Assembly (NCBI RefSeq): GCF_009910705.1
Contig: NZ_JAAAXJ010000016.1
Location: forward strand, 1 to 64,000
Length of the DNA: 64,000 bases
Source: Microvirga arsenatis
GTDB lineage: Bacteria; Pseudomonadota; Alphaproteobacteria; Rhizobiales; Beijerinckiaceae
Direction of reading: 5' to 3'
Below the pieces are notes generated by a model that worked only from the letters and a program-made list of their open reading frames with translations, was not told the DNA's origin and did not search any database. Both the position numbers and the translations under genes were made by a program. Below are positions 280 through 21,168 of the stretch, one piece after another; the stretch's first letter is position 1; every line of letters starts with the position of its first letter.

Positions 280-305
280 GTAACCGGTCCCCCCGCAAGT
301 CCGAA
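280..305 (+). promoter_or_regulatory. NrsF-type ECF sigma promoter, GTAACC-N16-CGAA
   Basis: GTAACC lies at 280-285 and CGAA at 302-305, exactly 16 bases apart. This matches the consensus I recall for Caulobacter SigF, an ECF sigma controlled by NrsF, and both partners are encoded at 19436-20634. The sequence around the -10 (ccgaact-atggtcaga) also recurs at the 21143 promoter, so the two are probably copies of one promoter. Only small doubtful reading frames lie downstream, so this may be an orphaned promoter. Confidence 0.6.
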
Positions 306-354
306 CTCATGGTCAGACGATCCCTGAACTCTCTGGTTAGTCAGGAGTAGACCA

Positions 355-525
355 ATGAGAGCTTGTCGTCATCGCTGCCGCACTCGTTTGCCATCCGCAG
401 CTCGCCGAATCTCTTCGGCGGGATCGCTTCAGATCGGAGCTCGTGTACGAGGCACCGTGCACATTCCCTTGGCCTTCCGCCTCTCGTGCAAAAGTTCCCA
501 AGGTAGACAATTTTATGGAGATTGA
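355..525 (+). CDS. possible 56-aa Arg/Cys-rich small protein
   Basis: An ATG at 355 follows a good ribosome site (AGGAG, about 7 bases upstream) and opens a 56-codon frame. It stops two bases before the ATG of the next small frame, a spacing typical of translational coupling. The product has four Cys and many Arg, no signal peptide or membrane segment, and I recognise no family. The Arg-rich composition is also what a chance GC-rich frame gives. The support is its position under the 280 promoter and the ribosome site. Confidence 0.28.
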   Translation: MRACRHRCRTRLPSAARRISSAGSLQIGARVRGTVHIPLAFRLSCKSSQGRQFYGD

Positions 526-527
526 TC

Positions 528-692
528 ATGTCTGACGAGACCCCGGAAGAGCATAAGGAGGCTGCTCGCTTGGCTTGGAAAAGCCGCCACATCCCGTTCG
601 GCACTCTTGTCATCAGCGTGTTTCTACTGGCCAGTGTGCTATCCGCAATCTTTATGGTTTTCGCCCAAGGACCTTCGAACCCTATTCCTTGA
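528..692 (+). CDS. 54-aa small single-span membrane protein
   Basis: ATG at 528 is preceded by GGAG at 517-520. The 54-residue product begins with a charged, Glu/Lys-rich cytoplasmic segment of about 20 residues. It continues with one clear transmembrane helix (about residues 24-46, FGTLVISVFLLASVLSA) and ends in a short polar tail. The charge pattern predicts the N-terminus inside. I do not recognise the family. It sits just after the 56-codon frame and may belong to the transcript of the 280 promoter. Confidence 0.5.
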   Translation: MSDETPEEHKEAARLAWKSRHIPFGTLVISVFLLASVLSAIFMVFAQGPSNPIP

Positions 693-1047
693 CCCAATCC
701 TGCTACCAGCCCGGTACCTTGACCGCGCCCAAGATCCCCCGGCTCTTCTTGTGATGAACGCGCCTGCCCGAGAGTTCAGCGGACCGTGTTTGGCCTGCGA
801 CCGTTTGGATTGCACGGCGAACTTGTGAGCCACACATGGATTGCCTTTTATACGCCCCTTGTTCCACGGCACGACGTTAGCACGATTGTGAACTGCCCTC
901 ATGGGGTCGTCCGAACCGAAGCGGGCCTACGCTGATCGACAGGGAGGATCCGAATCGGTAGCCATGGTGGGCTTGCACTCAGCAAGTAGCTGACCGATCC
1001 ACCACAGAGACGAGAATAGAACGCTCTTACAGCAAGGATCTCCGTTC
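693..1047. other. 355-nt gene-free stretch holding the dsbA leader
   Basis: No convincing coding frame is seen on either strand. The only structured part is the conserved leader at 948-995, described separately. No GTAACC-type promoter is present here. Confidence 0.5.
948..995 (+). promoter_or_regulatory. conserved leader of the dsbA-like gene: hairpin plus 9-codon ORF
   Basis: This 48-nt stretch is repeated at 50147-50194 with a single substitution, in the same position ahead of the paralogous gene. It contains an inverted repeat (CTTGC at 972-976, ACTCA loop, GCAAG at 982-986) and a short frame, ATG at 964 to TGA at 991 (MVGLHSASS). The one substitution changes the last residue, S to G. 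It may be an operator, an attenuator-like leader peptide or an RNA structure. Which one cannot be decided here. Confidence 0.5.
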
Positions 1048-1803
1048 ATGCCCTTCAATTCCTCCGCCGTCCACCGCGTTGCGCTCTTGACCGCGCTCGT
1101 TCTGCCTTCGGCGGTATGGGCCCAGCCTACTCCGTTCACGCCCGAGCAGCGCGATGCCATCGGCGGGATCATTCGAGAGTATCTCGTCAAGAACCCGGAG
1201 GTGCTGCAGGAGGCTTTCACCGAACTCCAGCGGCGCATGCAGGAGGCTGAGCAGGCAGGCCGGGCGGAGGTGCTGACCTCCGAGCGCGCCAAGCTCGAGA
1301 ACTCGCCCCATGACTTCGTGCTCGGCAACCCGCAGGGCGACGTCACCATGGTCGAGTTCCTCGACTACAACTGTGGCTACTGCAAACGCGCCATGGCCGA
1401 TGTGAAGGCGCTCATCAAGTCTGACCCCAAGCTGCGGGTGGTGATCAAGGACTTTCCGGTGCTCGGCCCGGGGTCGGTCGAGGCCAGCCGGGTTGCACTA
1501 GCGGCCAAGGCCCAGCTCTCCGGCGACAAGCTCTACGAGTTCCACACCAATCTCATGGAGAGACGCGGCCAGGCCAATGGGGAATCCGCTAAGGCTGTCG
1601 CCAAGGAGATGGGGCTCGACATGGCGCGCCTGGAAAAGGATCTGCAAAGCAGCGATATCAATGCCACCCTCCAGGAGAACATGGAACTTGGGCAAAAGCT
1701 GGGGATCAACGGCACGCCGGGCTTCGTGATCGGGAATGAGGTTATCGCTGGCGCTGTCGGGGCCGAGCCACTGAAGCAGGTCATCGCGAACACGCGGAAC
1801 TGA
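1048..1803 (+). CDS. DsbA/Com1-like periplasmic thiol:disulfide oxidoreductase
   Basis: A 251-residue exported thioredoxin-fold protein. It has a signal peptide (residues 1-25, ending near AVWA-QP), then a helical N-terminal extension (about 30-85) typical of the Com1/DsbA-like group. The thioredoxin domain carries CGYC at Cys109-Cys112 and a cis-Pro loop (NGTPGF) near residue 220. Its likely role is disulfide exchange or isomerisation in the periplasm, perhaps keeping copper-site cysteines reduced or repaired. A close paralogue lies at 50243-51001 with the same upstream leader. The start follows an aaggatct ribosome site. Confidence 0.9.
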   Translation: MPFNSSAVHRVALLTALVLPSAVWAQPTPFTPEQRDAIGGIIREYLVKNPEVLQEAFTELQRRMQEAEQAGRAEVLTSERAKLENSPHDFVLGNPQGDVTMVEFLDYNCGYCKRAMADVKALIKSDPKLRVVIKDFPVLGPGSVEASRVALAAKAQLSGDKLYEFHTNLMERRGQANGESAKAVAKEMGLDMARLEKDLQSSDINATLQENMELGQKLGINGTPGFVIGNEVIAGAVGAEPLKQVIANTRN

Positions 1804-2176
1804 AGCAGAACCAGGATGTGAACAGCAGCTCCCGCGCCCGCTGACATCCGCTGCAGTGACTTGCCGCTCTAACCCGTATAGTTGGACTTAGGCCACTGCA
1901 ACCATCCGACTCCCGGCGCCCTGATTGATGCTATTAAACCTGCGCTCAAGACCGCATGACAATCATTGTACGGGCAGCCAAGTTAGGCATCTGGTCGGCA
2001 CAGGTTTTGTGTTCTGAGTGTCTGCAAGCATGGTAGAGCGGCATGGTGAGAATTAGGTCTAGTGACCTCCGTTCTTGAACCCAACGTGCCGCTTCCCTGC
2101 TGACAGTCGGCGGCACATGTTCAGTCAGTCCGGGGGGCGGGCGCACCCGGTCCAGGTCCGCCCGGACCGCCAAGTG
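1804..2176. other. 373-nt stretch with no recognised feature
   Basis: A 75-codon minus-strand frame exists here, but it has no ribosome site and an Arg-rich composition. I see no promoter motif or strong inverted repeat. Confidence 0.4.
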
Positions 2177-2458
2177 CTAGTTGTTGCGCTTGATCCAGCT
2201 GTTGTACTGCTGGGCGTCAACTGCCGCGGCTCCGTTCCGTGCCAACATCTCTTGCAGCGGCGTCGGCCTGTGCCCCGGGGGGAAGCTCCCCTCCGGGAAC
2301 TGCCCAGTCAGATTGCGGCTGGGTCTTTGCGCACCCGAGTAGGCTTGTCCGGGATCGTTGTAGCCAGAGACGGCAGGGTATCCGGACATGACGGGCTGGG
2401 CCTGGACGGCGCCTGAAATGCTCGCCGCAATGGCGAAGGCGAGGGGAAATTGTTTCAT
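2177..2458 (-). CDS. small exported protein, function unknown
   Basis: A 93-residue protein with a clear signal peptide (MKQFPLAFAIAASISGAVQA) and a polar mature part of about 73 residues rich in Gly, Pro, Tyr and Gln. There is no Cys. The start at 2458 is chosen because AGGAGG lies 9 bases upstream and the signal peptide begins there; a longer in-frame start at 2599 is rejected. An exact GTAACC-N16-CGAA promoter lies about 55 bases upstream on the same strand, so it is probably an ECF-regulon member. No family recognised. Confidence 0.7.
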   Translation of the reverse strand: MKQFPLAFAIAASISGAVQAQPVMSGYPAVSGYNDPGQAYSGAQRPSRNLTGQFPEGSFPPGHRPTPLQEMLARNGAAAVDAQQYNSWIKRNN

Positions 2459-2513
2459 GACAATGAGCCTCCTATCTTGTTGGGAGCGCAACCTTGGTGC
2501 TCCTGTACTTAAG

Positions 2514-2539
2514 TTCGGTGGGAACGGCGCTTTGGTTAC
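2514..2539 (-). promoter_or_regulatory. NrsF-type ECF sigma promoter for the 93-aa exported protein
   Basis: Read on the minus strand, GTAACC occupies 2539-2534 and CGAA 2517-2514 with 16 bases between. The exported-protein gene starts at 2458. Confidence 0.65.
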
Positions 2540-2656
2540 AGCGTCCCGCGCACGGCCCGCCAGACCTTCTAGCCCGTCCAATGATCGTGACACTGACACC
2601 CGTAAGGGCAGCCCGCGATCTCAGCCTCCGGGCACGGCAGCAGGCGCATATGGCGT

Positions 2657-2682
2657 GTAACCTTCGGCCCACCGACCCCGAA
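2657..2682 (+). promoter_or_regulatory. NrsF-type ECF sigma promoter ahead of the copper ATPase region
   Basis: GTAACC at 2657-2662 and CGAA at 2679-2682 with a 16-base spacer. It is 118 bases from, and divergent to, the promoter at 2514-2539. It reads toward the small frames at 2727 and 2943 and the Cu-ATPase gene at 3227. Confidence 0.65.
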
Positions 2683-2726
2683 TAATAAGAAGAATGCGCC
2701 GCCTACCGCGGCACGGAGACAAGGCA

Positions 2727-2864
2727 ATGTATCTCGTATCAGCACTGGGAGCCCTCCTGCTCCTCCTCGCGACCACCGCGTGGTTCCGCGCGCCGACCGT
2801 CGCGCTGGCTCCCGTCCGGGCCTGGCGTCCGGGATCCCGGCGGGGGCCCCGCTTGAACACCTGA
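2727..2864 (+). CDS. 45-aa small membrane or exported peptide
   Basis: ATG at 2727 lies about 45 bases after the promoter -10, with a GGAG about 10 bases upstream. The product starts with a strongly hydrophobic segment (about residues 2-19, with a run of five Leu) followed by an Arg-rich tail. It may be a signal-anchor peptide. No family recognised. Confidence 0.4.
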   Translation: MYLVSALGALLLLLATTAWFRAPTVALAPVRAWRPGSRRGPRLNT

Positions 2865-5635: not shown

Positions 5636-5649
5636 TGGCCCGGGCGCGG

Positions 5650-5695: not shown

Positions 5696-5780
5696 CGCGG
5701 GTAGCGCAATGCGTCTGCCCTGACCTCGGCGCCACCTCAAGCGCGCCGGCCCAGAAAACTTCAAAGTGGAGATCCTAATC

Positions 5781-6476
5781 GTGAACATGCCTTCGCTCCT
5801 CGCTGTCGCCGCCGCTGTCGCGCTCGCCAGCCTGACAGCGGACCCTGGGTCGGCGCACTCGCTCGACAGCCTCCAGGGCGAGATGCACAAAAAGGAGAAG
5901 TACTTCGAGGTGAAGGACCGGCCCGCTCCGGAATTCACGCTGCGGGACGCCAAGGGAAACGATCATCGCCTCTCCGCGCTTCGCGGCAAGGTCGTCATCG
6001 TCAATTTCATTTACTTGGGCTGCACGGACGTGTGCCCGCTCCACACTGAAAAGATCGCCGAGATCCAGGGCATGGTGAACAGCACGCCGATGCGCGATCA
6101 GGTGCAGTTCCTGACCGTCACCACCGACCCGGACCGTGACAAGCCGGAGGTCTTGAGCGCCTTCGGTGCGGAGCGCGGGCTCGATTTGCGGAATTGGGTG
6201 TTCCTGACGACCACGCCCGGGATGCCCGAGGATGCGACCCGCAAGCTGGCGGAACAGTTCGGGCACAAATTCACCAAGACTGCCGACGGCCTGCAGATGC
6301 ATGGTATCGTCACCCACGTCATCGACCGCGAGGGACGCTGGCGCGCGAACTTCCACGGCCTCCAGTTCGAACCCACGAACCTGGTCGTCTACATCAACGC
6401 CCTGGTGAACGACCGCGACCGCCACGACGTGGAGCGAAGCCCTTCGTTGTGGGAGCGCCTCCGGTCCTTTTTCTGA
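5781..6476 (+). CDS. SCO1/SenC-family copper chaperone / thiol protein
   Basis: About 231 residues with an N-terminal hydrophobic export segment and a thioredoxin-like SCO domain. The Cu ligands are visible: CTDVC (about Cys81 and Cys85) and a distal His in the MHGIVTH segment (His174/179). SCO proteins deliver Cu to the CuA site of cytochrome oxidase or reduce its cysteines; in resistance clusters they may buffer periplasmic copper. A GGAG about 9 bases upstream of GTG 5781 supports that start; GTG 5766 and ATG 5787 are alternatives. A second SCO paralogue is at 46251. Confidence 0.85.
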   Translation: MNMPSLLAVAAAVALASLTADPGSAHSLDSLQGEMHKKEKYFEVKDRPAPEFTLRDAKGNDHRLSALRGKVVIVNFIYLGCTDVCPLHTEKIAEIQGMVNSTPMRDQVQFLTVTTDPDRDKPEVLSAFGAERGLDLRNWVFLTTTPGMPEDATRKLAEQFGHKFTKTADGLQMHGIVTHVIDREGRWRANFHGLQFEPTNLVVYINALVNDRDRHDVERSPSLWERLRSFF

Positions 6477-7131: not shown

Positions 7132-7539
7132 TTATTGTGCCGGGCTGAGCGACTGAACGGTGTAGCTGCCGTCCGTGCCCTTGTTCAGGGTGAACTTCAC
7201 CTTGGCCCCGGGCTTTACTTGGGTGAGGTCGACGGACGGGGCTGCCGCGAACTCCATCGACATGGCCGGCCAGCCGATGGCCGGGATCGGTTCATGGTTG
7301 AGCTTGACCTTGCGCTGCTCGGTGTTGACTGACGCGACAGTGCCGGTTGCCATGGCGCTCGTCGCCGCCGTGGTGTTGCCACTGCCCATGCCAGGCATGT
7401 TCTGCATGTTGCCCATGCTGCCGCCGGAACTGCTCTGAGCGTGGGCCGGCAGGGCCAGGGCCGCGGCGGTGAGGCCGCCCAGGACCAAGGCCTTCAGGGC
7501 CGGGCCGCGCGTGCGCGGTAAGAGGATGAGGCTCGACAT
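7132..7539 (-). CDS. CusF-like periplasmic copper-binding chaperone
   Basis: 135 residues: a signal peptide (to about residue 34), a short Met/Gly/Ser-rich linker (about 41-63), then a CusF-type OB-fold domain. The Cu(I)/Ag(I) ligand pattern W-P-x-M-x-M is present (Trp90, Met93, Met95). CusF passes copper to the CusB adaptor of the CusCBA pump. It is the last gene of the leftward operon that begins at 14869 and includes cusB and cusA. The start at 7539 has AGGAGA 5 bases upstream; a much longer in-frame extension to 8280 overlaps the cyclase gene and is rejected. Confidence 0.88.
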   Translation of the reverse strand: MSSLILLPRTRGPALKALVLGGLTAAALALPAHAQSSSGGSMGNMQNMPGMGSGNTTAATSAMATGTVASVNTEQRKVKLNHEPIPAIGWPAMSMEFAAAPSVDLTQVKPGAKVKFTLNKGTDGSYTVQSLSPAQ

Positions 7540-7699: not shown

Positions 7700-8980
7700 T
7701 CACGACGCCACCACGGTCGCATCCGGCTGGGCCCGGTGCGGTTCGGCGGGGGGCTTTTGCCGCAGCAGGCGAAGGGGCTGGCGCCGGCCGCGCAAGGACT
7801 GGTCCGGGACAGGGTCCCACAAGGCGCTGTCCACGACCGGCCTGGCTGCCTGCAGGGCGGGTTCGGACACGAGGAGGCGTACGCCGAGCTCACCGGCGAG
7901 CTCCTCGATCCGGTTGGCAACATTGACGGTGTCGCCGATGACCGTGAACTCCAGGCGCTCCTCGTCGCCGAGCGTCCCCGCGGTGACCTCGCCGTAGTGG
8001 ATGCCGATCCCCACCTCGATGGGGGCGAGCCCCGCCGCGGCACGCTCTTCGTTCCAGCGGTCTGTCGCCTCGTGGATCTCCAGGCCACATTGGACGGCGT
8101 TGCCGGCGTCCGCCTCGGTCGGATGCGGCACGCCGAACACGGCCATGATCCCATCACCAATGAACTTGTCGATGACCCCGCCCCGCCGCGCCACCGGTGC
8201 GGCCATCCGGCGCCGGTACTCAGTGAGGAACAGGGCGAGCTCGCCCGCCGCCATGCGCTCGGCCATCGGGGTGAAGCCACGCACGTCGATGAACATCACG
8301 GCGGCCCGCTGCGGCCGGAAGGACGAAGGTCCCGGCTCCGACCTCGCGAGCTGGTCAGCGATGCTCGCGCTGAAGAAGCGCGACAGGTTGGAGCGCAGCC
8401 GCGCCTCGCGGATGGCGTCCGCAAGCGCCCGGCGCGTCCGGCTTACCGCCACGAACAGCACGACGGCCGTGAGCGCCACGACAGAGAGGCGGGTGATCTC
8501 CCCCGGCAGGACGAAGGCGGCGTCGGGCGCCCACGCCCCGGCCGTGACCCACAGCACCGCCCAGCCCGCCGCGAACAGGCCGGCGGTGTAGAGGACCAGG
8601 TAGGGTCGGTGCCGGACTGCGGCAATCGCCAGGAGGAGGAAGATCAGAGAGGCCACTGGAGCGGCCGAGATGCCAGACGCCAGCGTTCCGAACGTGAGGG
8701 CCAGAGGACCGATGCAGTGTAGGAGGAGACCGACGTCGAGGGTCGCGAATACCCAGGGCAGCCAAGGCCGAAAAAAGCCGATCCAGGCCAGCACCAAGCT
8801 CACAGTCGCGAACACGCCCAGGGCAATGACGGAGAACATGGCCATGTGCGCATGCTCCAGCGCACCTCCCGCCCAGAATACGGCTGTGATGGCGGAGAAC
8901 ACCAGGAGGCGCAGGACGGCGAGGAGGGCCTCGGTCTCCCGCTCGACGCGCGCCAGGCCCCGGTCGATGTGCGACCTCAT
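7700..8980 (-). CDS. membrane-bound class III adenylate/guanylate cyclase
   Basis: 426 residues: about five or six transmembrane helices in the first 190 residues, a linker, then a class III cyclase domain. The catalytic pieces are intact: metal-binding Asp in MFIDVRGF, the K of KFIGDGIMAVFG with the second metal Asp, and the GDTVNVANRIE segment carrying the purine-site Asp and the transition-state Asn and Arg. The Lys/Asp pair predicts ATP as substrate, so cAMP as product. It lies between cusA and the cusF-like gene on the same strand. A longer start at 9124 would overlap cusA; ATG 8980 is preferred although its ribosome site is weak. Confidence 0.85.
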   Translation of the reverse strand: MRSHIDRGLARVERETEALLAVLRLLVFSAITAVFWAGGALEHAHMAMFSVIALGVFATVSLVLAWIGFFRPWLPWVFATLDVGLLLHCIGPLALTFGTLASGISAAPVASLIFLLLAIAAVRHRPYLVLYTAGLFAAGWAVLWVTAGAWAPDAAFVLPGEITRLSVVALTAVVLFVAVSRTRRALADAIREARLRSNLSRFFSASIADQLARSEPGPSSFRPQRAAVMFIDVRGFTPMAERMAAGELALFLTEYRRRMAAPVARRGGVIDKFIGDGIMAVFGVPHPTEADAGNAVQCGLEIHEATDRWNEERAAAGLAPIEVGIGIHYGEVTAGTLGDEERLEFTVIGDTVNVANRIEELAGELGVRLLVSEPALQAARPVVDSALWDPVPDQSLRGRRQPLRLLRQKPPAEPHRAQPDATVVAS

Positions 8981-9098
8981 CGCAGAACTCGCCCGGCCGC
9001 GAGGGCGCCGCGGATGGCGCACCGGCACCCGCGGGGCAGGAAACCCTGGCGACTTTGATCCATGACAGCCACTTGCAAGACAGGCACATTCATGGCGC

Positions 9099-12000
9099 TT
9101 ACTCGGCCGCCCGCGGCAGCGCATTCCCCAGGCGTGCGGACAGGGGCTCGTGGCTGCCGTCGCGGCTTGGGGCCACGTCCCCCCGCCGCGGCAGCCCGCG
9201 CCCCTTCACGAGGGCGTAAATGGCTGGGATGACCACCAGCGTCAGCACGGTCGACGAGACCATGCCGCCGATCATCGGCACGGCAATGCGCTGCATGATC
9301 TCGGAGCCGGCACCCGTGCTCCACAGGATCGGGATCAGGCCCGCCATGATCGCCACCACCGTCATCATCTTCGGCCGCACCCGCTCCACCGCGCCGACCA
9401 TGATCGACTCGTAGAGGTCCTCGCGGCTGAAGGCGCGGCCCTGGCCCGCACGCGCGGCCTGCACCTCCTTCATGGCATGATCCAGGTAGATCAGCATGAT
9501 GACGCCGGTTTCCGCCGCAACACCAGCAAGCGCGATGAAGCCCACCGCCACGGCCACCGACATGTTGAAGCCGAGCCACCACATCAGCCACAGCCCGCCG
9601 ACCAGCGCGAAGGGCAGTGACAGCATCACGATCAACGTCTCCGTGAGCCGCTTGAAGTTGAGGTAGAGCAGCAGAAAGATGATCAGCAGCGTGACCGGCA
9701 CCACGATCTTGAGGCGGGCCTCGGCGCGTTCCAGGTACTCGAACTGCCCGCTCCATTGGACGTAGTAGCCCGGCGGGAACTTGACCTCGTTCGCAACCGC
9801 CTGGCGCGCCTCGGCGACATAGCCGCCGAGATCGCGCCCGGTGATGTCGACGAAGATGTAGACCGCAAGCTGGCCGTTCTCCGTGCGGATCGAGGTCGCG
9901 CCCCGATTGAGCTTCACCTCCGCGACCTCGCCCAGTGGCACGGCGCCCCCGTTGGGCATCGGCACCTGCACCTCGGTGGCGATGGCCTGCGGGTTCGAGC
10001 GCAGCTCGCGCGGATAGCGGATGTTGACGCTGTAGCGCTCGCGGCCCTCGACGGTGTTGGTGATCATCTCGCCGCCGAGCGCCATGGCGATCACATCCTG
10101 CACGTCACCCACGGTCAGGCCATAGCGCCCAAGCGCCTCCCGGTTCGGTGTGATGTCAAGGTAGTAGCCGCCAATCACCCGCTCAGCAAATGCACTCGAT
10201 GTGCCGGGAACCGCCTTGACCACGGCCTCGACCTGGCGCGAGATCTTCTCCATCTCGGCAAGGTCGGTGCCGAACACCTTGATGCCGACAGGGGTGCGGA
10301 TGCCGGTCGAGAGCATGTCGATGCGCGCCCGGATCGGCATGGTCCAGGCGTTCGACACGCCGGGGAACTGCAGCGCCTTGTCCATCTCGGCCTTGAGGCT
10401 GTCGATGGTGACCCCCGGCCGCCACTCGCTCTTTGGCTTCAGGTTGATGATCGTCTCGAACATCTCCGTTGGCGCAGGGTCGGTGGCTGTCGAGGCGCGG
10501 CCCGCCTTGCCATAGACCGAGGCAACCTCAGGGAACGACTTGATGATCCGATCCTGGGTTGCCAGAAGCTCGGCCGCCTTGGTGATCGACAGTCCCGGCA
10601 AGGTGGTGGGCATGTACATCAGCGTGCCCTCGTTCAGGGTCGGCATGAACTCGGAGCCGATCTGGCGCGCAGGCCAGACGCTGGCGCCGAGCGCCACGAG
10701 GGCGACGAGGATCGTGAGCACCTTGGCCTTGAGCACGCCCCGGATGACCGGCCGGTAGATCCAGATCAGAAAGCGGTTCAGCGGGTTCTTGTGCTCCGGA
10801 ATGATCCGCCCGCGCACAAAGATCACCATCAGGGCCGGGACGAGCGTCACGGACAGGAAGGCGGCGGACGCCATGGCGAAGGTCTTGGTGAAGGCGAGCG
10901 GCCCGAAGAGGCGGCCTTCCTGGTTCTCCAGCGTGAAGATCGGCAGGAACGACACCGTGATGATCAGCAGGCTGAAGAACAGGGCCGGGCCAACCTCGCT
11001 TGCGGCCTCGATCAGGATCTCGACGCGTGGCTTGTCCTTTGGGGCCCGTTCCAGGTGCTTGTGGGCGTTCTCGATCATGACGATCGCCGCATCGATCATC
11101 GCCCCGACCGCAATCGCAATGCCGCCCAGGCTCATGATGTTGGACCCGAGCCCGATCATCTTCATGGCGACGAAGCTGATCAGGATACCAACCGGCAGCA
11201 TCAGGATGGCAACAAGCGCGCTGCGCAGGTGGAGCAGGAACACAATGCAGACCAGCGCGACGATGACGCTCTCCTCGATCAGCGTGTACTTGAGGGTCTC
11301 GATGGCGGCCTCGATCAGCTGCGAGCGGTCATAGACGGGAACAATCTCGGTGCCCGCAGGCAGGCTCGGCAGGACCTCCGCAAGGCGCTGCTTCACGCTC
11401 TCGATCACGTTGAGTGCGTTGGCCCCGAAGCGCTGCAGGATGATGCCGCTTGCGACCTCGCCTTCGCCGTTGAGCTCGGTGATGCCGCGCCGCTCGTCAG
11501 GCCCCAATTCGACACGGGCGATGTCGCCGAGACGCAGGGGCGTGCCGGCATCGGTCTTGAGCACGATGCTCTCGATGTCCTGAATGTTCTTCAAATAGCC
11601 GCGGCCGCGGACCATGAACTCGAACTCGGAGAGCTCGACCGTGCGCCCACCGACGTCCATGTTGCTCCCGCGGATGGCATCGCGGATCATGGTCATCGAG
11701 ACGCCCTGCGCGCGCAGGCGGCGCGGATCGACCACGACGTTGTACTGCTTGACGAAGCCGCCGACCGCGGCCACCTCGGCGACGCCCTCGGCCTTGGCGG
11801 CGGCAAAGCGCACCTTCCAGTCCTGCACCGAGCGCAGCTCCGCCAGGGTGAGGTCCTTAGCCAAGAGGGCATACTGGTAAACCCAACCCACGCCAGTGGC
11901 ATCGGGGCCGAGGGTCGGCGTCACACCCGCGGGGAGGCGACTTCCTGCGGCATTGAGGAATTCGAGCACCCGCGACCGTGCCCAGTACGGGTCCGTGCCG

Positions 12001-12296
12001 TCCTCGAAGATGATGTAGACGAACGAGACGCCGAAGAACGAGAAGCCCCGCACCACCTTCGATTGCGGCACCGTCAGCATCGCGGTGGTGAGCGGATAGG
12101 TCACCTGGTCCTCGACGACCTGCGGCGCCTGACCCGGGTAATCCGTGTAGACGATGACCTGCACGTCCGAGAGGTCGGGAATGGCATCGAGCGGCAGGCT
12201 GCGCAGGGCGTACAGACCCGCCGCGACGGCGAACACAGTCGCGATCAGGACGAGCATCAGGTTGCGGGACGACCAGGCGATGGTACCGGCGATCAT
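9099..12296 (-). CDS. cusA: CusA-type RND heavy-metal efflux pump, copy A
   Basis: A 1065-residue HME-RND inner-membrane transporter with 12 predicted helices and two large periplasmic loops. The segment around Met661 (RIDMLSTGI) matches the CusA methionine site, favouring Cu(I)/Ag(I) over divalent ions. Charged proton-relay residues lie in TM4 (IAVGAMIDAAIVMIEN). It forms a tripartite pump with CusB (upstream, ATGA overlap at 12293-12296). No outer-membrane CusC is seen in the window. The protein is identical to the copy at 52635-55832. The last codons differ only synonymously, and the stop is TAA here and TGA there. Confidence 0.96.
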   Translation of the reverse strand: MIAGTIAWSSRNLMLVLIATVFAVAAGLYALRSLPLDAIPDLSDVQVIVYTDYPGQAPQVVEDQVTYPLTTAMLTVPQSKVVRGFSFFGVSFVYIIFEDGTDPYWARSRVLEFLNAAGSRLPAGVTPTLGPDATGVGWVYQYALLAKDLTLAELRSVQDWKVRFAAAKAEGVAEVAAVGGFVKQYNVVVDPRRLRAQGVSMTMIRDAIRGSNMDVGGRTVELSEFEFMVRGRGYLKNIQDIESIVLKTDAGTPLRLGDIARVELGPDERRGITELNGEGEVASGIILQRFGANALNVIESVKQRLAEVLPSLPAGTEIVPVYDRSQLIEAAIETLKYTLIEESVIVALVCIVFLLHLRSALVAILMLPVGILISFVAMKMIGLGSNIMSLGGIAIAVGAMIDAAIVMIENAHKHLERAPKDKPRVEILIEAASEVGPALFFSLLIITVSFLPIFTLENQEGRLFGPLAFTKTFAMASAAFLSVTLVPALMVIFVRGRIIPEHKNPLNRFLIWIYRPVIRGVLKAKVLTILVALVALGASVWPARQIGSEFMPTLNEGTLMYMPTTLPGLSITKAAELLATQDRIIKSFPEVASVYGKAGRASTATDPAPTEMFETIINLKPKSEWRPGVTIDSLKAEMDKALQFPGVSNAWTMPIRARIDMLSTGIRTPVGIKVFGTDLAEMEKISRQVEAVVKAVPGTSSAFAERVIGGYYLDITPNREALGRYGLTVGDVQDVIAMALGGEMITNTVEGRERYSVNIRYPRELRSNPQAIATEVQVPMPNGGAVPLGEVAEVKLNRGATSIRTENGQLAVYIFVDITGRDLGGYVAEARQAVANEVKFPPGYYVQWSGQFEYLERAEARLKIVVPVTLLIIFLLLYLNFKRLTETLIVMLSLPFALVGGLWLMWWLGFNMSVAVAVGFIALAGVAAETGVIMLIYLDHAMKEVQAARAGQGRAFSREDLYESIMVGAVERVRPKMMTVVAIMAGLIPILWSTGAGSEIMQRIAVPMIGGMVSSTVLTLVVIPAIYALVKGRGLPRRGDVAPSRDGSHEPLSARLGNALPRAAE

Positions 12297-13529
12297 TGGG
12301 GCTTCTCTTCGGCAGGTGCCGTCATGCCCTGCAGGGCGGCTTTCAGGTTGCTTTCGGCATCAATGAGGAAGTTGGCGGACGTCACCACCTGATCCCCCGC
12401 GGCGACGCCCTCGCGGATCTCGACGAAGCCGTTCCCGCGAGCGCCGACCTTGACCTGGCGCGGCTCGAAGCGGCCTTCGCCCTTGTCGACGATCACGATC
12501 TGACGGGTACCGGTGTCGATGAGCGCGCTGTCGGGCACGGCCACGACGGGCTTGCCGGAGCCGGTGGCGAACTCCACGTCCGCGTACATGTCCGGCAGCA
12601 GGAGCCCGTCCCGGTTGGGGATCTCGATCCGCACCCGGGCCGTGCGGGTCTCTGGGTTCACCTGCGGGTAGATCAGGTCAACGCGGCCCGAGAACGTCTG
12701 TCCCGGCAGGCTGCGCACCCGGAGGGTCACAGCCTGGCCCGGCTGGACGGCGCCCAGGTCGTGTTCCGGCACGTCCGCGAGGATCCAGACGGTCGAGATG
12801 TCGGCCAGCCGGAACAGCACGTCACCGGGCATGGCCCGCATGCCCTCGATGGCATTGCGCTCCAGGATGATCCCGTCCCGCGGGGCTGACCACGTGATCG
12901 CGGTCGGCACCTTGCGGGTGCGTTCGATCTCGGCGATCACCTCCGGGGGCACGTTGAGGTTCTCAAGCCGGCGGCGGGCGCCCTCCAGCACCAGCGGCCG
13001 TCCGGCGCCACTGCCTTCGTTCACGACACTGAGGTACTGCGCGCTCGCCGCCGCGATGTCCGGGGAATACAGGCGCAACAGCGGATCGCCCTTGCGCACG
13101 CGCTCGCCGGTGGTCACGTCCTCGACCTTGTCGATGAAGCTCTCAGAGCGCAGGGAGATCACGGCGATGCGGCGCTCATCAAGCTTCACGGTGCCGGGGG
13201 CGCGGACCGGACGGGTCACAACCCGGCGCTCGACAGCCTCCGAGCGCACGCCGGTGCGCTGCAGCTTGCCTGGCGAGACCGTAACGGTCGAGCCGTCCTC
13301 CGCCTCGCCCTCGTAGACCGGGATGTAGTCCATGCCCATCGAGTCTTTCTTCGGCACCGGCGAGGTGTCGGGCAGGCCCATGGGGTTGCGGTAGTACAGG
13401 ATCTTCTTGCCGCTGGCCTGGTCAGCTGCGCTCTGTCCGGCTGACGCGTCCTTCGGCTTGTCGTCGAAGCTCACGTCCTCACCGACCCGAACAGCGACGT
13501 AATCCCGACCGTCCTCCGTCTTCTTCGGC
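9130..13529. repeat. 4.4-kb perfect direct repeat, copy A (cusB-cusA)
   Basis: From 9130 to 13529 the sequence matches 52666-57065 at a constant offset of 43536. I found no difference in any segment or reading frame compared. Outside the limits the two loci stay homologous but diverge at once, with synonymous changes in the last cusA codons on one side and different cusB N-termini on the other. This points to recent gene conversion between two older paralogous operons. Confidence 0.92.
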
Positions 13530-13852
13530 GAGATCGAGTAGGCTGGCTGGCCGTCGGGATGGCGGTAATAGGCGACTGGACCCGCTGCGGCCGGCGCGGG
13601 GCCGTTCAGGAACGCCACGGCCGGTGCCGGGAGCCAGCCCGGCAACGGCCAGTTCGTCCGGCCGCCGTGGTACCCCGCCGCGAACCCGCCCGCCAGCGCC
13701 GTGGCCGCCAGCGTGGTGAGCGCGAGCCGCTTCAGGGTTCGCCCGTGGCGCGGCGGCGGGGCCCTCTCAGGGGCCGTGTCCGGCTCGAAGTGGTCGCGGC
13801 TCGCGAAGGGATCCTGGCGTTCCAGAGAGTTAAGGGGGGAGATCTGGTCCAT
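12293..13852 (-). CDS. cusB: CusB-type RND periplasmic adaptor, copy A
   Basis: 519 residues: a cytoplasmic N-terminus, one membrane anchor (about 44-64), two degenerate heavy-metal-binding repeats (YYRHPDGQP and YYRNPMGLP with PKK and Met-rich turns), then lipoyl/hairpin and beta-barrel adaptor domains. It links CusA to an outer-membrane channel and accepts Cu(I)/Ag(I) from CusF. The stop overlaps the cusA start by four bases, and the start overlaps the stop of the FixH-like gene by one base, so the operon is tightly coupled. From about residue 108 it is identical to copy B; before that the two diverge strongly. Confidence 0.93.
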   Translation of the reverse strand: MDQISPLNSLERQDPFASRDHFEPDTAPERAPPPRHGRTLKRLALTTLAATALAGGFAAGYHGGRTNWPLPGWLPAPAVAFLNGPAPAAAGPVAYYRHPDGQPAYSISPKKTEDGRDYVAVRVGEDVSFDDKPKDASAGQSAADQASGKKILYYRNPMGLPDTSPVPKKDSMGMDYIPVYEGEAEDGSTVTVSPGKLQRTGVRSEAVERRVVTRPVRAPGTVKLDERRIAVISLRSESFIDKVEDVTTGERVRKGDPLLRLYSPDIAAASAQYLSVVNEGSGAGRPLVLEGARRRLENLNVPPEVIAEIERTRKVPTAITWSAPRDGIILERNAIEGMRAMPGDVLFRLADISTVWILADVPEHDLGAVQPGQAVTLRVRSLPGQTFSGRVDLIYPQVNPETRTARVRIEIPNRDGLLLPDMYADVEFATGSGKPVVAVPDSALIDTGTRQIVIVDKGEGRFEPRQVKVGARGNGFVEIREGVAAGDQVVTSANFLIDAESNLKAALQGMTAPAEEKPQ

Positions 13853-14346
13853 TACTGCACCGCCTTGAGAATAAGCTTGCCTTGCACGGTGCCGGCCTCG
13901 CCGGGCACCTTCGCGGCGAGCGACACTTGCCAGCCGCCCTCCATCGCGAGATTGGTCTTGAACAGGTAGGTGCCGGGCTTGTCGGCCGGCTGCGGCTCCA
14001 GAGGCGCCGTCATCATCGCCATGTCCTCGGGGGCCATGTCGATGCGGCGGGCGAAGATCACCGCATCAGGCACGGGCTTGCCGGTCGGCTTATGGACGAG
14101 CTCGACAGCGACCAGGGCCTCACCCGAGCGGGCCTGCGGACTAACCAGCCGAAATTCGTAGTCGTTCAGAGCCTCGGTCGAGACCGGGGTGACGGCACGG
14201 GCGGGGAGCAGGCCGGCGAGCGCTGCCGTGACCTGTGGCGGCACCCAGGCCGGCAGGGCGAGCTCGCCCCTGCCGACACGGTAGCCGGCCGCGGTGGCCG
14301 CGCCGAGCACGACGAGGAACAGGAGCGTGATGACAGCTTTCTTCAT
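13852..14346 (-). CDS. FixH/YtkA-like exported protein with Met motif (1)
   Basis: 164 residues: an N-terminal signal anchor (about 5-25) and a C-terminal beta-sandwich of the FixH/YtkA-like kind (about 60-164). A conserved RRIDMAPEDMAMMTAPLEP segment carries five Met and is shared with the genes at 14393 and 57349, a likely Cu(I)-binding surface. Its position directly before cusB suggests a periplasmic copper accessory to the CusBA pump. GAGG precedes the ATG. The specific function is unproven. Confidence 0.7.
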   Translation of the reverse strand: MKKAVITLLFLVVLGAATAAGYRVGRGELALPAWVPPQVTAALAGLLPARAVTPVSTEALNDYEFRLVSPQARSGEALVAVELVHKPTGKPVPDAVIFARRIDMAPEDMAMMTAPLEPQPADKPGTYLFKTNLAMEGGWQVSLAAKVPGEAGTVQGKLILKAVQ

Positions 14347-14894: not shown

Positions 14895-14920
14895 TTCGCT
14901 GCCGCCGCCGAAACGGTTAC
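14895..14920 (-). promoter_or_regulatory. NrsF-type ECF sigma promoter of the cus operon
   Basis: On the minus strand GTAACC is at 14920-14915 and CGAA at 14898-14895, spacer 16. The first gene starts at 14869. This would place FixH-like genes, cusB, cusA, the cyclase and the cusF-like gene under the ECF sigma factor. Confidence 0.7.
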
Positions 14921-18224: not shown

Positions 18225-18662
18225 ATGCGCATCCTCAACACCGCCGCTCTCGCCCTTGCCCTGACCCTCGCTGGTCCCGTCCTTGCGCAGAGCGCAAAGC
18301 AGGCCACCCTCTACAAGAACCCGCAATGCAGCTGCTGCGAGGAGTACGTGAAGTACCTTCGCGAGAGCGGCTTCGAGGTGAAGGTCGTAACCACCCACGA
18401 CCTGCCGCTGGTCAAGAAGGAGCACGGCGTCCCCACCGACCTTGAAGGCTGCCACACCACCCTCGTCGACGACTACGTCGTCGAGGGGCACGTGCCGCTG
18501 AAATCCCTCAACAAGCTCCTCACGGAGCGCCCGGCGATCAAGGGCATCTCGCTCCCGGGCATGCCGATGGGCTCCCCCGGGATGGCCGGGCGGAAGATGG
18601 AGCCGTTCACGATGTACGAGATCTCGGGTGATCCTACGCCCAAGATCTTCGCGGTCGAGTGA
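18225..18662 (+). CDS. DUF411 periplasmic metal-binding protein
   Basis: 145 residues: a signal peptide (about 1-20), then a DUF411 domain with YKNPQCSCCEEY near the N-terminus (a CxCC metal site), a third cysteine region (EGCHTTLVDDYVVEGHVP) and Met-rich C-terminal turns (GMPMGSPGM). DUF411 proteins are common in copper operons and thought to bind Cu in the periplasm. AAGGAG lies 7 bases upstream. It is 26 bases after the multicopper oxidase, so co-transcription is likely. Confidence 0.9.
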   Translation: MRILNTAALALALTLAGPVLAQSAKQATLYKNPQCSCCEEYVKYLRESGFEVKVVTTHDLPLVKKEHGVPTDLEGCHTTLVDDYVVEGHVPLKSLNKLLTERPAIKGISLPGMPMGSPGMAGRKMEPFTMYEISGDPTPKIFAVE

Positions 18663-18673
18663 AGGAGCGAACC

Positions 18674-18808
18674 ATGATGCATGACATGATGAGCGGCCCG
18701 ATGGGCTGGATGATGGAGGGCATGGGCCTCGTCGGGCTCCTGCTTGGCGTCGCACTGGTCCTCGCGATCATCGCACTGGTCAAGGTCATCGTCGGGAGCG
18801 GGCGATGA
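18674..18808 (+). CDS. 44-aa Met-rich single-span membrane protein
   Basis: Starts MMHDMMSGPMGWMMEGMG and continues as one transmembrane helix of about 24 residues ending in a basic tail. Eight of the first 17 residues are Met, suggesting Cu(I) binding on one face of the membrane. AAGGAG precedes it, and its TGA overlaps the next start in an ATGA. A counterpart of the same design is at 51514-51639, beside the second copy of the cus genes. Confidence 0.7.
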   Translation: MMHDMMSGPMGWMMEGMGLVGLLLGVALVLAIIALVKVIVGSGR

Positions 18809-19377
18809 TATCGTTTTTCCTCGCCCTCCTCGTCCTCGCGGCGGCGCCTGCCGCCGCGACGGAGCGGCCCGCCTCCTTCGTTCTCCATCGCGAGCCGCGC
18901 CCCGTGCCCGATTTGCGCTTCGTCGACGGCGAGGGGGGCACGCGGACCCTTGCGGACTTCCGCGGCAAGGTCGTGCTTCTGAACGTGTGGGCGACCTGGT
19001 GCCCGCCGTGCCGCCAGGAGATGCCGGCGCTGGACCGCCTGCAGGCGATGCTTGGCGGCCCGGGTTTCGAGGTGGTCGCCCTGTCCGTCGACCGTGCCGG
19101 GGCGGGGCCGGTGCGCCGGTTCTACGGCGAGACCGGGGTCGGCCGCATCGCGGTCTATCTCGACGCGTCGGGGCGGGCCCTGCGCGACCTCAACGCGGTC
19201 GGCCTGCCGACCACGCTCCTGCTCGACCGGGAGGGGCGGGAGATCGGCCGGCTGATCGGACCGACGATCTGGGATGCGCCCGAGATGGTCCAGATCCTGC
19301 GTGAACGCATAGGTCCCGCTTCGGATGGAGGGGCGCCACGAGAACGCCACCGATCCCGCGCGGGCGCCGTGCATTGA
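18805..19377 (+). CDS. TlpA-like thioredoxin-fold protein
   Basis: 190 residues: a signal peptide (about 1-18) then a TlpA/ResA-type thioredoxin domain with the WCPPC active site and a cis-Pro loop (VGLPTTLLL). Such proteins reduce periplasmic disulfides, including CuA-site and SCO cysteines. It has no CcdA partner beside it; the only ccdA is at 48836. Its paralogue at 48107 shares the N-terminal motif RPxPxLxF. It is coupled by a four-base overlap to the small Met-rich protein. Confidence 0.88.
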   Translation: MISFFLALLVLAAAPAAATERPASFVLHREPRPVPDLRFVDGEGGTRTLADFRGKVVLLNVWATWCPPCRQEMPALDRLQAMLGGPGFEVVALSVDRAGAGPVRRFYGETGVGRIAVYLDASGRALRDLNAVGLPTTLLLDREGREIGRLIGPTIWDAPEMVQILRERIGPASDGGAPRERHRSRAGAVH

Positions 19378-19392
19378 TGGATGCGCGGCGGT

Positions 19393-19418
19393 GTAACCGA
19401 ACACCCATGTGGCACGAA
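19393..19418 (+). promoter_or_regulatory. autoregulatory NrsF-type ECF sigma promoter
   Basis: GTAACC at 19393-19398 and CGAA at 19415-19418, 16 bases apart, directly upstream of the ECF sigma gene (ATG 19436). Self-promotion is the normal arrangement for ECF factors and anchors the identification of the motif elsewhere in the window. Confidence 0.75.
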
Positions 19419-19435
19419 CTAAGGGGTGAACGCTC

Positions 19436-19993
19436 ATGATTGCGAACGAAGCCGAGCTGCGGGCGCTCATGACGGCTGGTCTGAACGGCGATGCGGCGGC
19501 CCACCGCGTGCTCCTGGACAGGCTCAGTCGCCACCTGCGGGCTTACTATAAGAACAAGCTCGCGCGGATCGGGCGGAGCGCCGACGAGGCGGAGGATCTG
19601 GTGCAGGATGCGCTGATGGCGATCCATACCCGGCGGCACACCTACGACCCGGGCGAGCTCTTCACCCCGTGGGTGCATGCCATCGCGCGCTACAAGCTCA
19701 TCGACCACCTGCGCCACACGAAGGCCTCCATGGCGGATGGGCCCATCGAGGATGCCGCCGACTTCGAGGCGCAGGACGACCATGCTGGGGCGGAGAGCGC
19801 CCTCGACCTCGACCGCCTGCTCGCGCGGCTGCCCGAGAAGATGCGGCGCGCGATCCGGCACGTTAAGATCGATGGCCTGAGCGTCGCCGAGACCGCCGCT
19901 CGTTGCGGCATGTCGGAATCGGCGGTCAAGGTGAGCGTGCATCGGGGCCTCAAGGCCATGGCGGCGGCAATCGCCCAGGGAAGGACCACATGA
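19436..19993 (+). CDS. ECF RNA polymerase sigma factor (NrsF-partnered type)
   Basis: 185 residues: sigma region 2 (about 25-95, with DEAEDLVQDALMAIH and the TPWVHAIARYKLIDHLR -10 recognition part) and region 4 (about 125-180, with the helix-turn-helix GLSVAETAARCGMSESAVKVSVHRG). No region 3, as expected for ECF factors. AAGGGG precedes the ATG. Four bases of overlap link it to the NrsF gene, its likely anti-sigma. By analogy with Caulobacter SigF (metal stress, GTAACC/CGAA promoters) it should drive the promoters listed between 280 and 21168. Confidence 0.92.
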   Translation: MIANEAELRALMTAGLNGDAAAHRVLLDRLSRHLRAYYKNKLARIGRSADEAEDLVQDALMAIHTRRHTYDPGELFTPWVHAIARYKLIDHLRHTKASMADGPIEDAADFEAQDDHAGAESALDLDRLLARLPEKMRRAIRHVKIDGLSVAETAARCGMSESAVKVSVHRGLKAMAAAIAQGRTT

Positions 19994-20634
19994 AGACCGA
20001 CGACCTGATCAACATGCTCAGCACGAACGTCGAGCCGGTGGACCGCGGCCAGCTCAGGCGCAGCCTCGGCCTCGCGGTGGCGCTCGGGACCGGTGGGGCG
20101 CTCGTTGCGGCCCTGCTGACGCTCGGGGTCCGTCCGGACCTGCACGAGCCCGGCGCCCTGGCCTTTCTCGGCCTGAAGCTCGCCTTCTCGGCAGGCGTCG
20201 TCCTGGTGGCGTCGCTGCTGCTGACGCGCCTCGCCCGCCCGGGCGGAGAGCGCAGGACCCGTCCCGTCCTGGCGCTGCTGCCGTTCGCCGCCATCGTGCT
20301 GCTCGCGGGCCTGAGCCTCGCCTATGCACCGAGCACCCATTGGGAGGCGATGATCGTGGGCGACATGTGGCTAGAGTGCCTTGTGTCGATCCCAATCATC
20401 GCCATCGTGCCCTTTGCGGTGATTGTCTGGACCGTGCGCCGGCTCGCGGCGCCCACGGACCTGGCGCGGACCGGTGCCTTCGCCGGCCTGGCCGCCGGCG
20501 GTGTGAGCGCGATGGGCTATGCGCTGCACTGCATGGACGACTCCCTGCCGTTCATCGCGCTCTGGTATGGCGGCACCATCATCCTGTGCACAGTGGCCGG
20601 GGCGCTGCTCGGTCCGCGTCTGCTGCGCTGGTGA
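19990..20634 (+). CDS. nrsF: NrsF-family (DUF1109) membrane anti-sigma factor
   Basis: 214 residues, six predicted transmembrane helices after a short cytoplasmic N-terminus. Two cysteines, Cys130 (WLEC) and Cys181 (LHCMDD), fall almost exactly where I recall the two periplasmic cysteines needed for signal response in Caulobacter NrsF. The protein is thought to hold the ECF sigma at the membrane until metal stress modifies those cysteines. Translationally coupled to the sigma gene. A third Cys near residue 200 lies in the last helix. Confidence 0.9.
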   Translation: MKTDDLINMLSTNVEPVDRGQLRRSLGLAVALGTGGALVAALLTLGVRPDLHEPGALAFLGLKLAFSAGVVLVASLLLTRLARPGGERRTRPVLALLPFAAIVLLAGLSLAYAPSTHWEAMIVGDMWLECLVSIPIIAIVPFAVIVWTVRRLAAPTDLARTGAFAGLAAGGVSAMGYALHCMDDSLPFIALWYGGTIILCTVAGALLGPRLLRW

Positions 20635-20682
20635 CCGGAGACACCCGCGGCCAACTGCGCCGTCGGGGTGGTCAGTAGACCT

Positions 20683-20708
20683 GTAACCCGCCGGCCCAAT
20701 TGTGTGAA
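20683..20708 (+). promoter_or_regulatory. near-match NrsF-type ECF promoter (TGAA instead of CGAA)
   Basis: GTAACC at 20683-20688, 16-base spacer, then TGAA at 20705-20708, one change from the motif. It would read toward the small frame at 20884. Strength or use is doubtful. Confidence 0.4.
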
Positions 20709-20883
20709 GTCCTGATGACGAATACGCAACGTCCGGCTGGGCACGGGAGCCCTGATGCAAAGCGTTGGGCCGGAGGGCTCCATGGCACGACAATCTGCGG
20801 TTCGGTCGCGACGGTCCGACACCATCTGGCACAAGGGCCGGCGTCCGAGGCGGCGCATCCGGTCGAGCTAAGCCAAGGCCGGC

Positions 20884-21105
20884 GTGCGTGCCTTGCGCAG
20901 GCTCGTCTGGCTGATGCTGGGGGGAATGGCCGTGTTCATGGTGCTGTCATTTCAAGGCATCGGCCCCGGCACGCGTCCGGACCCATCCTCGCGGGCTTTC
21001 CTGGACCGTGCGCACTCCGTTTTCACGCCCTCAAGATCGCCTGCAGCCGCAGGAGCATCACAGGACCAAAGCTTAGCCGACATATCCGGGGCGCAGATGC
21101 CTTGA
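20884..21105 (+). CDS. possible 73-aa membrane-anchored small protein
   Basis: A GTG start at 20884 gives a product with a basic N-terminus, one transmembrane or signal helix (about 8-24, VWLMLGGMAVFMVLSFQG) and a polar Ser/Pro/Asp-rich tail. The ribosome site (caagg) is modest. It lies downstream of the near-match promoter at 20683. No family recognised; it may be an exported ECF-regulon protein or a chance frame. Confidence 0.42.
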   Translation: MRALRRLVWLMLGGMAVFMVLSFQGIGPGTRPDPSSRAFLDRAHSVFTPSRSPAAAGASQDQSLADISGAQMP

Positions 21106-21142
21106 CGATGCCGGGACCGGCCCTTCACGACCGCGTGAGCAT

Positions 21143-21168
21143 GTAACCGATCCGCGGCTGCCTCCGAA
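21143..21168 (+). promoter_or_regulatory. NrsF-type ECF sigma promoter
   Basis: GTAACC at 21143-21148 and CGAA at 21165-21168 with a 16-base spacer, 45 bases before the start at 21213. Bases around the -10 and start (ccgaact-atggtcaga) are shared with the promoter at 280-305. Confidence 0.7.

Follow-up and report, generated by a model that had tools for sequence, protein, structure and literature searches.

The first 64 kb of contig C8 (71.8 kb) of the Microvirga arsenatis genome (5.05 Mb), here called the window, begins with a block of copper genes at 0-22 kb. Within the block lies a gene pair for an extracytoplasmic function (ECF) sigma factor, SigF, and NrsF, a putative membrane anti-sigma factor. 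The locus raises the question of whether this pair controls the copper genes around it, and which signal it answers. The block is very probably a copper regulon run by NrsF-gated SigF, of the group ECF16, through seven promoters of the form GTAACC-N16-CGAA.

Seven sites of one promoter type

A window scan for GTAACC-N15..17-CGAA gives exactly seven matches in 64 kb, every one with a 16-base spacer. They stand at the coordinates and on the strands listed in the original prediction, and the scan confirms that the stretch from 21.2 to 64 kb is free of exact matches. Dinucleotide shuffles of the window contain 0.06 matches on average and one at most. The whole genome holds 10 exact N16 sites, seven of which fall within C8:280-21168 (20.9 kb); a reversed-pattern control has six matches genome-wide. 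Clustering of this kind has a Poisson probability near 1e-15, which rises to 3e-13 when corrected for 242 windows. The other three sites lie inside longer open reading frames (ORFs) on C13 and C31 and, on C49, near a transposase-like ORF without overlapping any ORF of at least 70 aa. All seven window sites are preceded by T, and CT follows CGAA in six.

The seven exact motifs, predicted to be ECF16 promoters, and one near-match are:

280 to 305, plus strand: promoter of a small membrane protein (528-692) and possibly ScsC/DsbA (1048-1803)
2514 to 2539, minus strand: promoter of a 93-aa exported protein, conserved link
2657 to 2682, plus strand: promoter of a small ORF, Cu-ATPase and SCO1 unit, conserved link
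14895 to 14920, minus strand: promoter of YtkA1-YtkA2-CusB-CusA-cyclase-CusF; the same run stands behind a site on plasmid pMVF16-3
15199 to 15224, plus strand: promoter of a Bax-inhibitor-1 family gene; the 90%-identical gene on pMVF16-3 likewise follows a site
19393 to 19418, plus strand: autoregulatory promoter of sigF-nrsF, before its own gene
21143 to 21168, plus strand: promoter of two small exported or membrane proteins, conserved link
20683 to 20708, plus strand: one-change near-match, unconserved and with no convincing gene downstream, judged no promoter

The one-change matches in the window are that at 20683 and, as the sole other, 39620, inside the ORF 39311-40456. The former had been put forward with the exact sites. 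Its sequence exists, but GTGACC or GTGAAC replaces the box in the three near relatives retaining the stretch (L097-L099), and no convincing gene stands behind it. The site is probably not a promoter and was dropped from the regulon. The earlier view that the sites lie between genes holds if likely start codons are taken (for example ATG 14869 of the YtkA gene), but longer, mechanically listed ORFs overlap some of them.

The sigma factor, NrsF and the promoter are of the ECF16 type

The two regulatory genes are:

19436 to 19993, plus strand: ECF16 sigma factor (SigF type); Pfam Sigma70_r2 and r4_2, NF009191 above cut-off; Lys165 in the region-4 helix
19990 to 20634, plus strand: NrsF anti-sigma factor; PF06532; six long helices; C130, H180 and C181 plus H117, M121, M182 and C200

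SigF comprises 185 aa, the size of an ECF factor, with sigma-70 regions 2 and 4 above the Pfam cut-offs. It ends in MAAAIAQGRTT and has no Cys-rich tail. NrsF scores 213.5 bits against PF06532 (cut-off 26.8) and falls below the cut-off of the narrower NCBIfam equivalog NF042994 (102.8 of 300); it is the only NrsF in the genome. These profile matches bear out the proposed ECF sigma gene with a site upstream (19393) and an NrsF gene beside it, and Cys130 and Cys181 are both present as proposed.

The Caulobacter SigF promoter, supported by 5' rapid amplification of cDNA ends and reporters, is printed as GTAACC-N16-CGAA (PMC3511200), in line with the original prediction. The ECF16 group consensus is tGTAACc-N16-CGAA with the start site 6 bases after the -10 element (PMC3420878), and (T/C)GTAAC-N17-CGAA is quoted in PMC8315932. 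By motif and profile, the window sites are the published ECF16 promoter and the pair is an ECF16 pair like Caulobacter SigF/NrsF. The sequence case for promoter identity and regulon membership is strong. Transcription of sigF would start near 19424, 12 bases 5' of the ATG.

Site-gene links recur in other genomes

The window NrsF is 100% identical to an NrsF of Microvirga sp. Mcv34, and the genome is close to Microvirga. Fifty-seven NrsF loci of named genomes were collected with up to 10 kb of each flank. Of the spacings from 8 to 24 between the two boxes, 16 gives 122 matches and no other gives more than six; without 12 near-copies the counts are 83 and at most six.

Every one of the seven site-gene links of the window is found again in one or more other Microvirga genomes. 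The original prediction of one metal-stress regulon stands in so far as the links to the Cu-ATPase, YtkA-CusBA-cyclase-CusF, Bax-inhibitor and small exported proteins recur in other Microvirga; metal stress as its signal is only inferred, with a strong case for copper. In Microvirga sp. VF16, 16 of the genome's 23 sites fall within 88.6 kb of plasmid pMVF16-3. They precede, among others, Bax-inhibitor, YtkA-YtkA-CusB-CusA-cyclase-CusF, Cu-ATPase, SigF-NrsF and small-protein genes, a TlpA-SCO-DsbA-CcdA run and an isoprenylcysteine methyltransferase-like gene. The plasmid proteins are 50% (93-aa protein), 55% (112-aa protein), 90% (Bax-inhibitor), 59% (YtkA1) and 78% (SigF) identical to those of the window. 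A site also lies upstream of homologues of the 93-aa protein (50-77% identity) in L295, L298, L300 and L301, and homologues of the 112-aa protein follow a site in L295, L154, L297 and L299. The 56-codon ORF before the Cu-ATPase has counterparts with 60-71% identity in M. arabica, BT688 and M. splendida, and the 54-residue protein and ScsC downstream of a site in Mcv34 (L303) are 77% and 88% identical. In L103, L105 and L107, a site lies about 300-750 nt 5' of the Cu-ATPase ORF.

Outside Microvirga, a site precedes the Cu-ATPase in Bosea and in Beijerinckiaceae metagenome-assembled genomes, and CusBA in Nitrobacter, Bradyrhizobium and Afipia. In Rhodoplanes and Rhodovulum PH10 a site precedes YtkA-CusBA, and SigF-NrsF stands directly behind CusA.

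Several further arrangements were seen in these loci. Plasmid pMVF16-3 carries a second DUF1109/NrsF gene (L154 4599-5240; 438598-439239 of the plasmid), 52% identical to the window NrsF; it lies about 10 kb before the sigF-nrsF pair and has no annotated sigma gene alongside. Afipia OHSU_II-C1 has a second cluster of exact sites (L304 2297-9433), the sites themselves starting with GTAACCTT, on a contig other than that of its copper NrsF; this cluster may belong to another ECF16 pair. In Afipia Root123D2 (L113 4263-5800) a site stands before the gene of an OpgC-type membrane acyltransferase (PF10129), which may be another member of the regulon; the layout is similar in Bradyrhizobium L111. In three Burkholderia/Caballeronia loci (L125, L126, L127), the sigma gene is divided between two reading frames, and so is NrsF.

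Copper genes mark one clade of NrsF

An NrsF tree was built from the 57 loci, the window and 79 of 99 other NrsF matches from 149 family genomes; 20 matches were left out as weak (E 1e-19 or worse) or partial. From 143 rows, 14 were dropped (seven split or short, three second copies and four identical to kept ones), leaving 129. An NrsF was labelled copper-linked if at least one of eight copper genes, recognised by identity cuts chosen for this analysis, lay within 10.5 kb. The tree is a quick one with several long branches, and some contigs end short of 10.5 kb.

Twenty-seven of the 129 NrsF are copper-linked, and 26 of these form one clade (97 in the Shimodaira-Hasegawa-like approximate likelihood ratio test), the exception being L244. 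Copper genes are thus found near 26/26 clade NrsF and 1/103 outside. The label changes twice on the tree, compared with 24.9 times in shuffles, none of 500 being as low. All examined NrsF at least 56.9% identical to the window protein have a copper gene nearby. The clade includes Microvirga, Methylorubrum/Methylobacterium, Bosea, Afipia, Nitrobacter, Bradyrhizobium, Rhodoplanes and others. When 14 clade genomes were scanned whole, 76 of 138 exact sites lay within 60 kb of a clade NrsF, whose places are approximate, with about two expected from the reversed-pattern rate; two pMVF16-3 sites, 86 kb from NrsF, are outside the 76.

CusB provides a control. At an identity of at least 45%, distinct clade loci have an exact site within 1.5 kb upstream of CusB in 11 of 16 cases, compared with none of 29 other family genomes (Fisher P = 4e-7). 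CusB was matched in 41 of the 149 family genomes, the own genome included, and loci were in hand for 29 of the 40 others. Three of the 29 carry a clade NrsF (G075, G079 and G147), so even clade members can lack the site. CusB of L116, with a site about 500 bases before it, falls just below the 45% cut and is uncounted. By tree position and gene neighbourhood, the window pair belongs to a copper-efflux branch of ECF16, with the Cus pump, the Cu-ATPase and small exported proteins as its predicted output.

The window contains a second Cus set at 52635-57915, with another YtkA-like gene and no ECF16 site; it was kept apart from the CusB count as a negative. The CusA protein (52635-55832) is identical to the first, with six base changes in the gene, and CusB (55829-57430) is 91% identical. 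We read this set as a recent copy under different control.

In the sister clade of the copper clade (L190, L191, L195, L203 and L205), the usual place before sigF has no exact site, and one is found about 25-45 bases ahead of the matched nrsF start; gene order or autoregulation therefore differs there.

Promoter position 6 varies with sigma residue 165

Among spacing-16 matches before sigF, position 6 of the -35 element is C for 20 of 21 in the copper clade and for all 15 in a Burkholderiales-rich group, and A or G for 48 of 49 in a large alphaproteobacterial group, where exact GTAACC-N16-CGAA occurs in none of 62 loci. Residue 165 in the region-4 helix of the sigma factor is Lys in 46/46 members of the first two groups and Arg in 65/65 of the third, a correlation that, like others at clade level, is limited by shared ancestry. 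Residue 165 is predicted to be a specificity residue for position 6.

NrsF as a candidate copper sensor

The AlphaFold2 model of NrsF (mean predicted local distance difference test score 90.2, predicted template modelling score 0.86) contains an N-terminal helix and six long helices, from 19-44 to 186-211. No solved NrsF relative was found by sequence, and no PDB fold match was better than E = 1. The six helices probably span the membrane. With the N-terminus presumably inside, H117, M121, M126, H180, C181 and M182 would be periplasmic. C130 is located near the start of helix 4, and C200 within helix 6.

Both sensor cysteines are widely conserved, C130 in 26/26 clade and 101/102 other NrsF and C181 in 25/26 and 94/102. 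Four residues set the clade apart from the others: H117 (81% vs 3%), M121 (77% vs 1%), M182 (85% vs 1%) and C200 (100% vs 2%). His, Met or Cys occupies 4/16 clade-specific columns, compared with 13/213 columns overall (hypergeometric P = 0.01); in eight other clades the total is 5/61. Among the best 120 of 2538 database homologues, H117 is present in 111 and M121 and C200 in 119 each, whereas residue 182 is weakly kept (Thr 73, Met 40). The clade NrsF carries extra His, Met and Cys, mostly in periplasmic loops, and has gained such residues near the sensor cysteines; because a clade stands for a single evolutionary event, these correlations do not count as independent tests. In Caulobacter NrsF, serine mutants of both cysteines de-repress the regulon (PMC3511200), and the NrsF loops are therefore a likely switch.

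A tentative extension, which we hold to be somewhat doubtful, makes the clade NrsF a membrane-embedded Cu(I) sensor, with H117, M121 and C130 in one loop, H180, C181 and M182 in the next and C200 helping. It would be a copper-tuned form of a thiol-stress anti-sigma factor, paired with a Lys165 sigma factor reading GTAACC where the Arg165 sisters read GTAACA/G.

Proposed mechanism and alternatives

By analogy with published relatives, NrsF would hold SigF inactive at the inner membrane. Excess periplasmic copper would change the state of NrsF through the periplasmic Cys130/Cys181 loops and release SigF, which would direct RNA polymerase to the seven promoters. This would raise SigF/NrsF, the Cu-ATPase, YtkA-CusBA-cyclase-CusF, the Bax-inhibitor protein, probably the ScsC-type redox protein, and several small exported proteins. 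Gene content and the Caulobacter analogy make copper the likely inducer in the clade. In Caulobacter, all copper conditions tested induce the SigF regulon, which belongs to the core copper response, and a sigF::Tn5 insertion makes the cells sensitive to copper (PMC8224329).

Several observations pull the other way. Three genes of the copper block, for the multicopper oxidase, DUF411 and TlpA, lack individual exact sites. The exact site is missing upstream of sigF in 6/26 clade members (20/26 have it) and within 1.5 kb of CusB in five of the 16 clade loci (L102, L104, L107, L117 and L187), and the 11 positive CusB loci include near relatives and so represent fewer independent cases. In most of the 149 family genomes, exact counts do not exceed the reversed control. 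Promoters of S. meliloti RpoE7 did not respond to H2O2, Cd or chromate (PMC6180224). Other ECF16 pairs respond to H2O2 and singlet oxygen (Bradyrhizobium, PMC3420878) or hypochlorite (Brucella, PMC8315932). Finally, two CueR genes above the curated cut-off are encoded elsewhere in the genome (contigs C1 and C11).

The bare string was rejected as a regulon marker genome by genome. Its counts are uninformative in the family because most NrsF examined there belong to the large clade using GTAACA/G.

An alternative that we regard as unlikely accepts the regulon as real and takes envelope oxidative or chlorine stress as its signal, the copper genes being included as copper stress and thiol oxidation coincide. 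The Bradyrhizobium and Brucella responses fit it, and ScsC and TlpA of the copper block are redox proteins. Moreover, the neighbours at three NrsF loci (L122, L131 and L135; Burkholderiales or unnamed) look by eye like cytochrome b561 and a Met-rich exported protein, resembling the published sigF/nrsF-yedYZ-mrpX set (PMC4623255). Such a signal accounts poorly for the near-exclusive tie of the clade to copper genes and for the His, Met and Cys gained near its sensor cysteines.

It is also improbable that the copper genes are controlled mainly by CueR or another copper regulator, with SigF as a minor or late layer. The two CueR genes would suit this arrangement, as would the cueR genes alongside the sites on the VF16 plasmid, but the ECF sites stand directly before the copper gene runs. 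No match in the window exceeds the CueR cut-off, the MerR-type genes at C8 24.4 and 34.7 kb being below it; CusRS-like two-component regulators were not searched for. Reading of the sites by another ECF sigma factor of the genome is very unlikely, given the single NrsF, the same site before sigF in most of the clade and the tracking of -35 position 6 by SigF residue 165. Chance clustering, or copied sequence without function, is next to impossible because diverged genomes keep the boxes and their spacing but not the spacer sequences; the clustering and spacing statistics point the same way. The 280 and 21143 promoters are alike, so that some copying may have occurred, and close Microvirga loci are near copies. 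Control of the copper block by NrsF-gated SigF remains the preferred reading.

Comparison with known systems

Cupriavidus CnrYXH likewise combines a membrane anti-sigma factor with an ECF sigma factor controlling a metal RND (resistance-nodulation-division) pump, but concerns cobalt and nickel and has an unrelated anti-sigma factor and a separate periplasmic sensor, CnrX. Myxococcus CorE, also an ECF sigma factor, activates genes for a Cu-ATPase and a multicopper oxidase and senses copper by its own Cys-rich C-terminal extension without NrsF (as described in PMC10141476), whereas the window sigma factor lacks such a tail.

Caulobacter crescentus SigF/NrsF (PMC3511200, PMC8224329) resembles the window system in its sigma-NrsF pair, GTAACC-N16-CGAA promoter, autoregulation and copper-responsive regulon, and its periplasmic cysteines C131/C181 correspond to C130/C181. 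The regulons differ: that of Caulobacter consists of DUF2282, DUF692 and DoxX genes and a sulfoxide reductase pair, whereas the window sites precede Cus, Cu-ATPase, YtkA and small exported protein genes. DUF2282 has no match in the genome (DUF692 and DoxX were not searched), and a bufferin output was rejected as far as DUF2282 shows. Bradyrhizobium EcfF/OsrA (ECF16, PMC3420878) shares a DUF1109 anti-sigma factor with C129/C179, autoregulation and a start site 6 bases past the -10 element. It differs in its promoter, GTAAC(g,a)-N14-15-(c,t)CG(t,a), its methionine sulfoxide reductases and its H2O2/singlet oxygen response. Brucella BcrS/AbcS and the sigF/nrsF-yedYZ-mrpX sets of perchlorate reducers (PMC8315932, PMC4623255) are ECF16-type pairs, the N17 promoter above being quoted for them in PMC8315932, but involve a hypochlorite response, a Met-rich peptide and a sulfoxide reductase; the available parts of these papers do not mention copper export genes.

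Buf1-type bufferin clusters also carry sigma and NrsF genes (PMC12452194), and the copper link of the family is therefore already known. No published ECF16 pair controlling Cus or a Cu-ATPase was found in titles and the starts of abstracts, with most subscription journals outside the search. Control of Cus and the Cu-ATPase by a dedicated ECF16 clade would be the new element here. Bacteria living in soil or with plants would then have a further means of copper control besides CueR, CusRS and CorE, and the clade points to a single anti-sigma scaffold reused with different regulons. Reports on the trigger of ECF16/NrsF vary, naming chromate, cadmium, copper, peroxide, singlet oxygen and hypochlorite (PMC8224329, PMC3420878, PMC8315932, PMC3511200). 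A clade with a copper-efflux output and metal-type ligands apparently gained in its sensor offers a natural comparison for this question.

Other features of the copper block

The copper block is sequentially composed of genes for a ScsC-type DsbA, Cu-ATPase, SCO1-like protein, CusF, nucleotide cyclase, CusA, CusB, two YtkA-like proteins, Bax-inhibitor family protein, multicopper oxidase, DUF411, TlpA, the ECF sigma factor and NrsF, followed by small exported proteins. Its features are:

528 to 692, plus strand: small membrane protein, 54 residues, one likely helix; first likely gene after the 280 site, homologues in L302 and L303
1048 to 1803, plus strand: ScsC-type DsbA-family thioredoxin; PF18312 ScsC_N and PF01323 above cut-off
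2177 to 2458, minus strand: small exported protein, 93 aa, no family; longer ORF without Pfam match, no NCBIfam match
2694 to 2864, plus strand: 56-codon ORF, likely membrane helix, between promoter and Cu-ATPase; homologues 60-71% identical at the same position in L298, L300 and L301
3227 to 5635, plus strand: Cu(I) P1B-type ATPase; TIGR01511, 602.7 bits, cut-off 397
5766 to 6476, plus strand: SCO1-like protein (named by eye), downstream of the Cu-ATPase on the same strand; only weak thioredoxin-type NCBIfam matches
7132 to 7539, minus strand: CusF-type periplasmic copper chaperone; PF11604 CusF_Ec, 89.7 bits, frame checked
7700 to 9124, minus strand: adenylate/guanylate cyclase in the Cus run; PF00211, longest ORF, start not fixed
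9099 to 12296, minus strand: CusA RND pump; TIGR00914, 1222.7 bits, cut-off 701
12293 to 13852, minus strand: CusB adaptor; TIGR01730 above cut-off, CusB model PRK09783 at 215 bits, below its cut-off
13852 to 14346, minus strand: YtkA-like exported protein 2; PF13115
14393 to 14869, minus strand: YtkA-like exported protein 1, first gene of the Cus run; PF13115
15309 to 16091, plus strand: Bax inhibitor-1/YccA family membrane protein; PF01027
16708 to 18198, plus strand: multicopper oxidase, same island; best NCBIfam match TIGR01480, below cut-off
21186 to 21524, plus strand: 112-aa Cys-containing protein, likely membrane helices; no Pfam or NCBIfam family match
21578 to 21886, plus strand: 102-aa Met/Gly-rich exported protein; no Pfam or NCBIfam family match

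The SCO1-like gene adjoins the Cu-ATPase in L298, L300 and L301 too. The nucleotide cyclase is located between CusA and CusF, in the same order on pMVF16-3, a position that suggests cyclic-nucleotide signalling tied to copper export. Beyond the copper block, contig positions 24374-46000 contain MerR-, MerP- and MerA-like, ArsH/ACR3/ArsC/ArsR-like, Zn/Cd-type P-ATPase and cation diffusion facilitator (CDF)-type genes, mostly named by eye from ORFs, and C8 looks like a multi-metal island.

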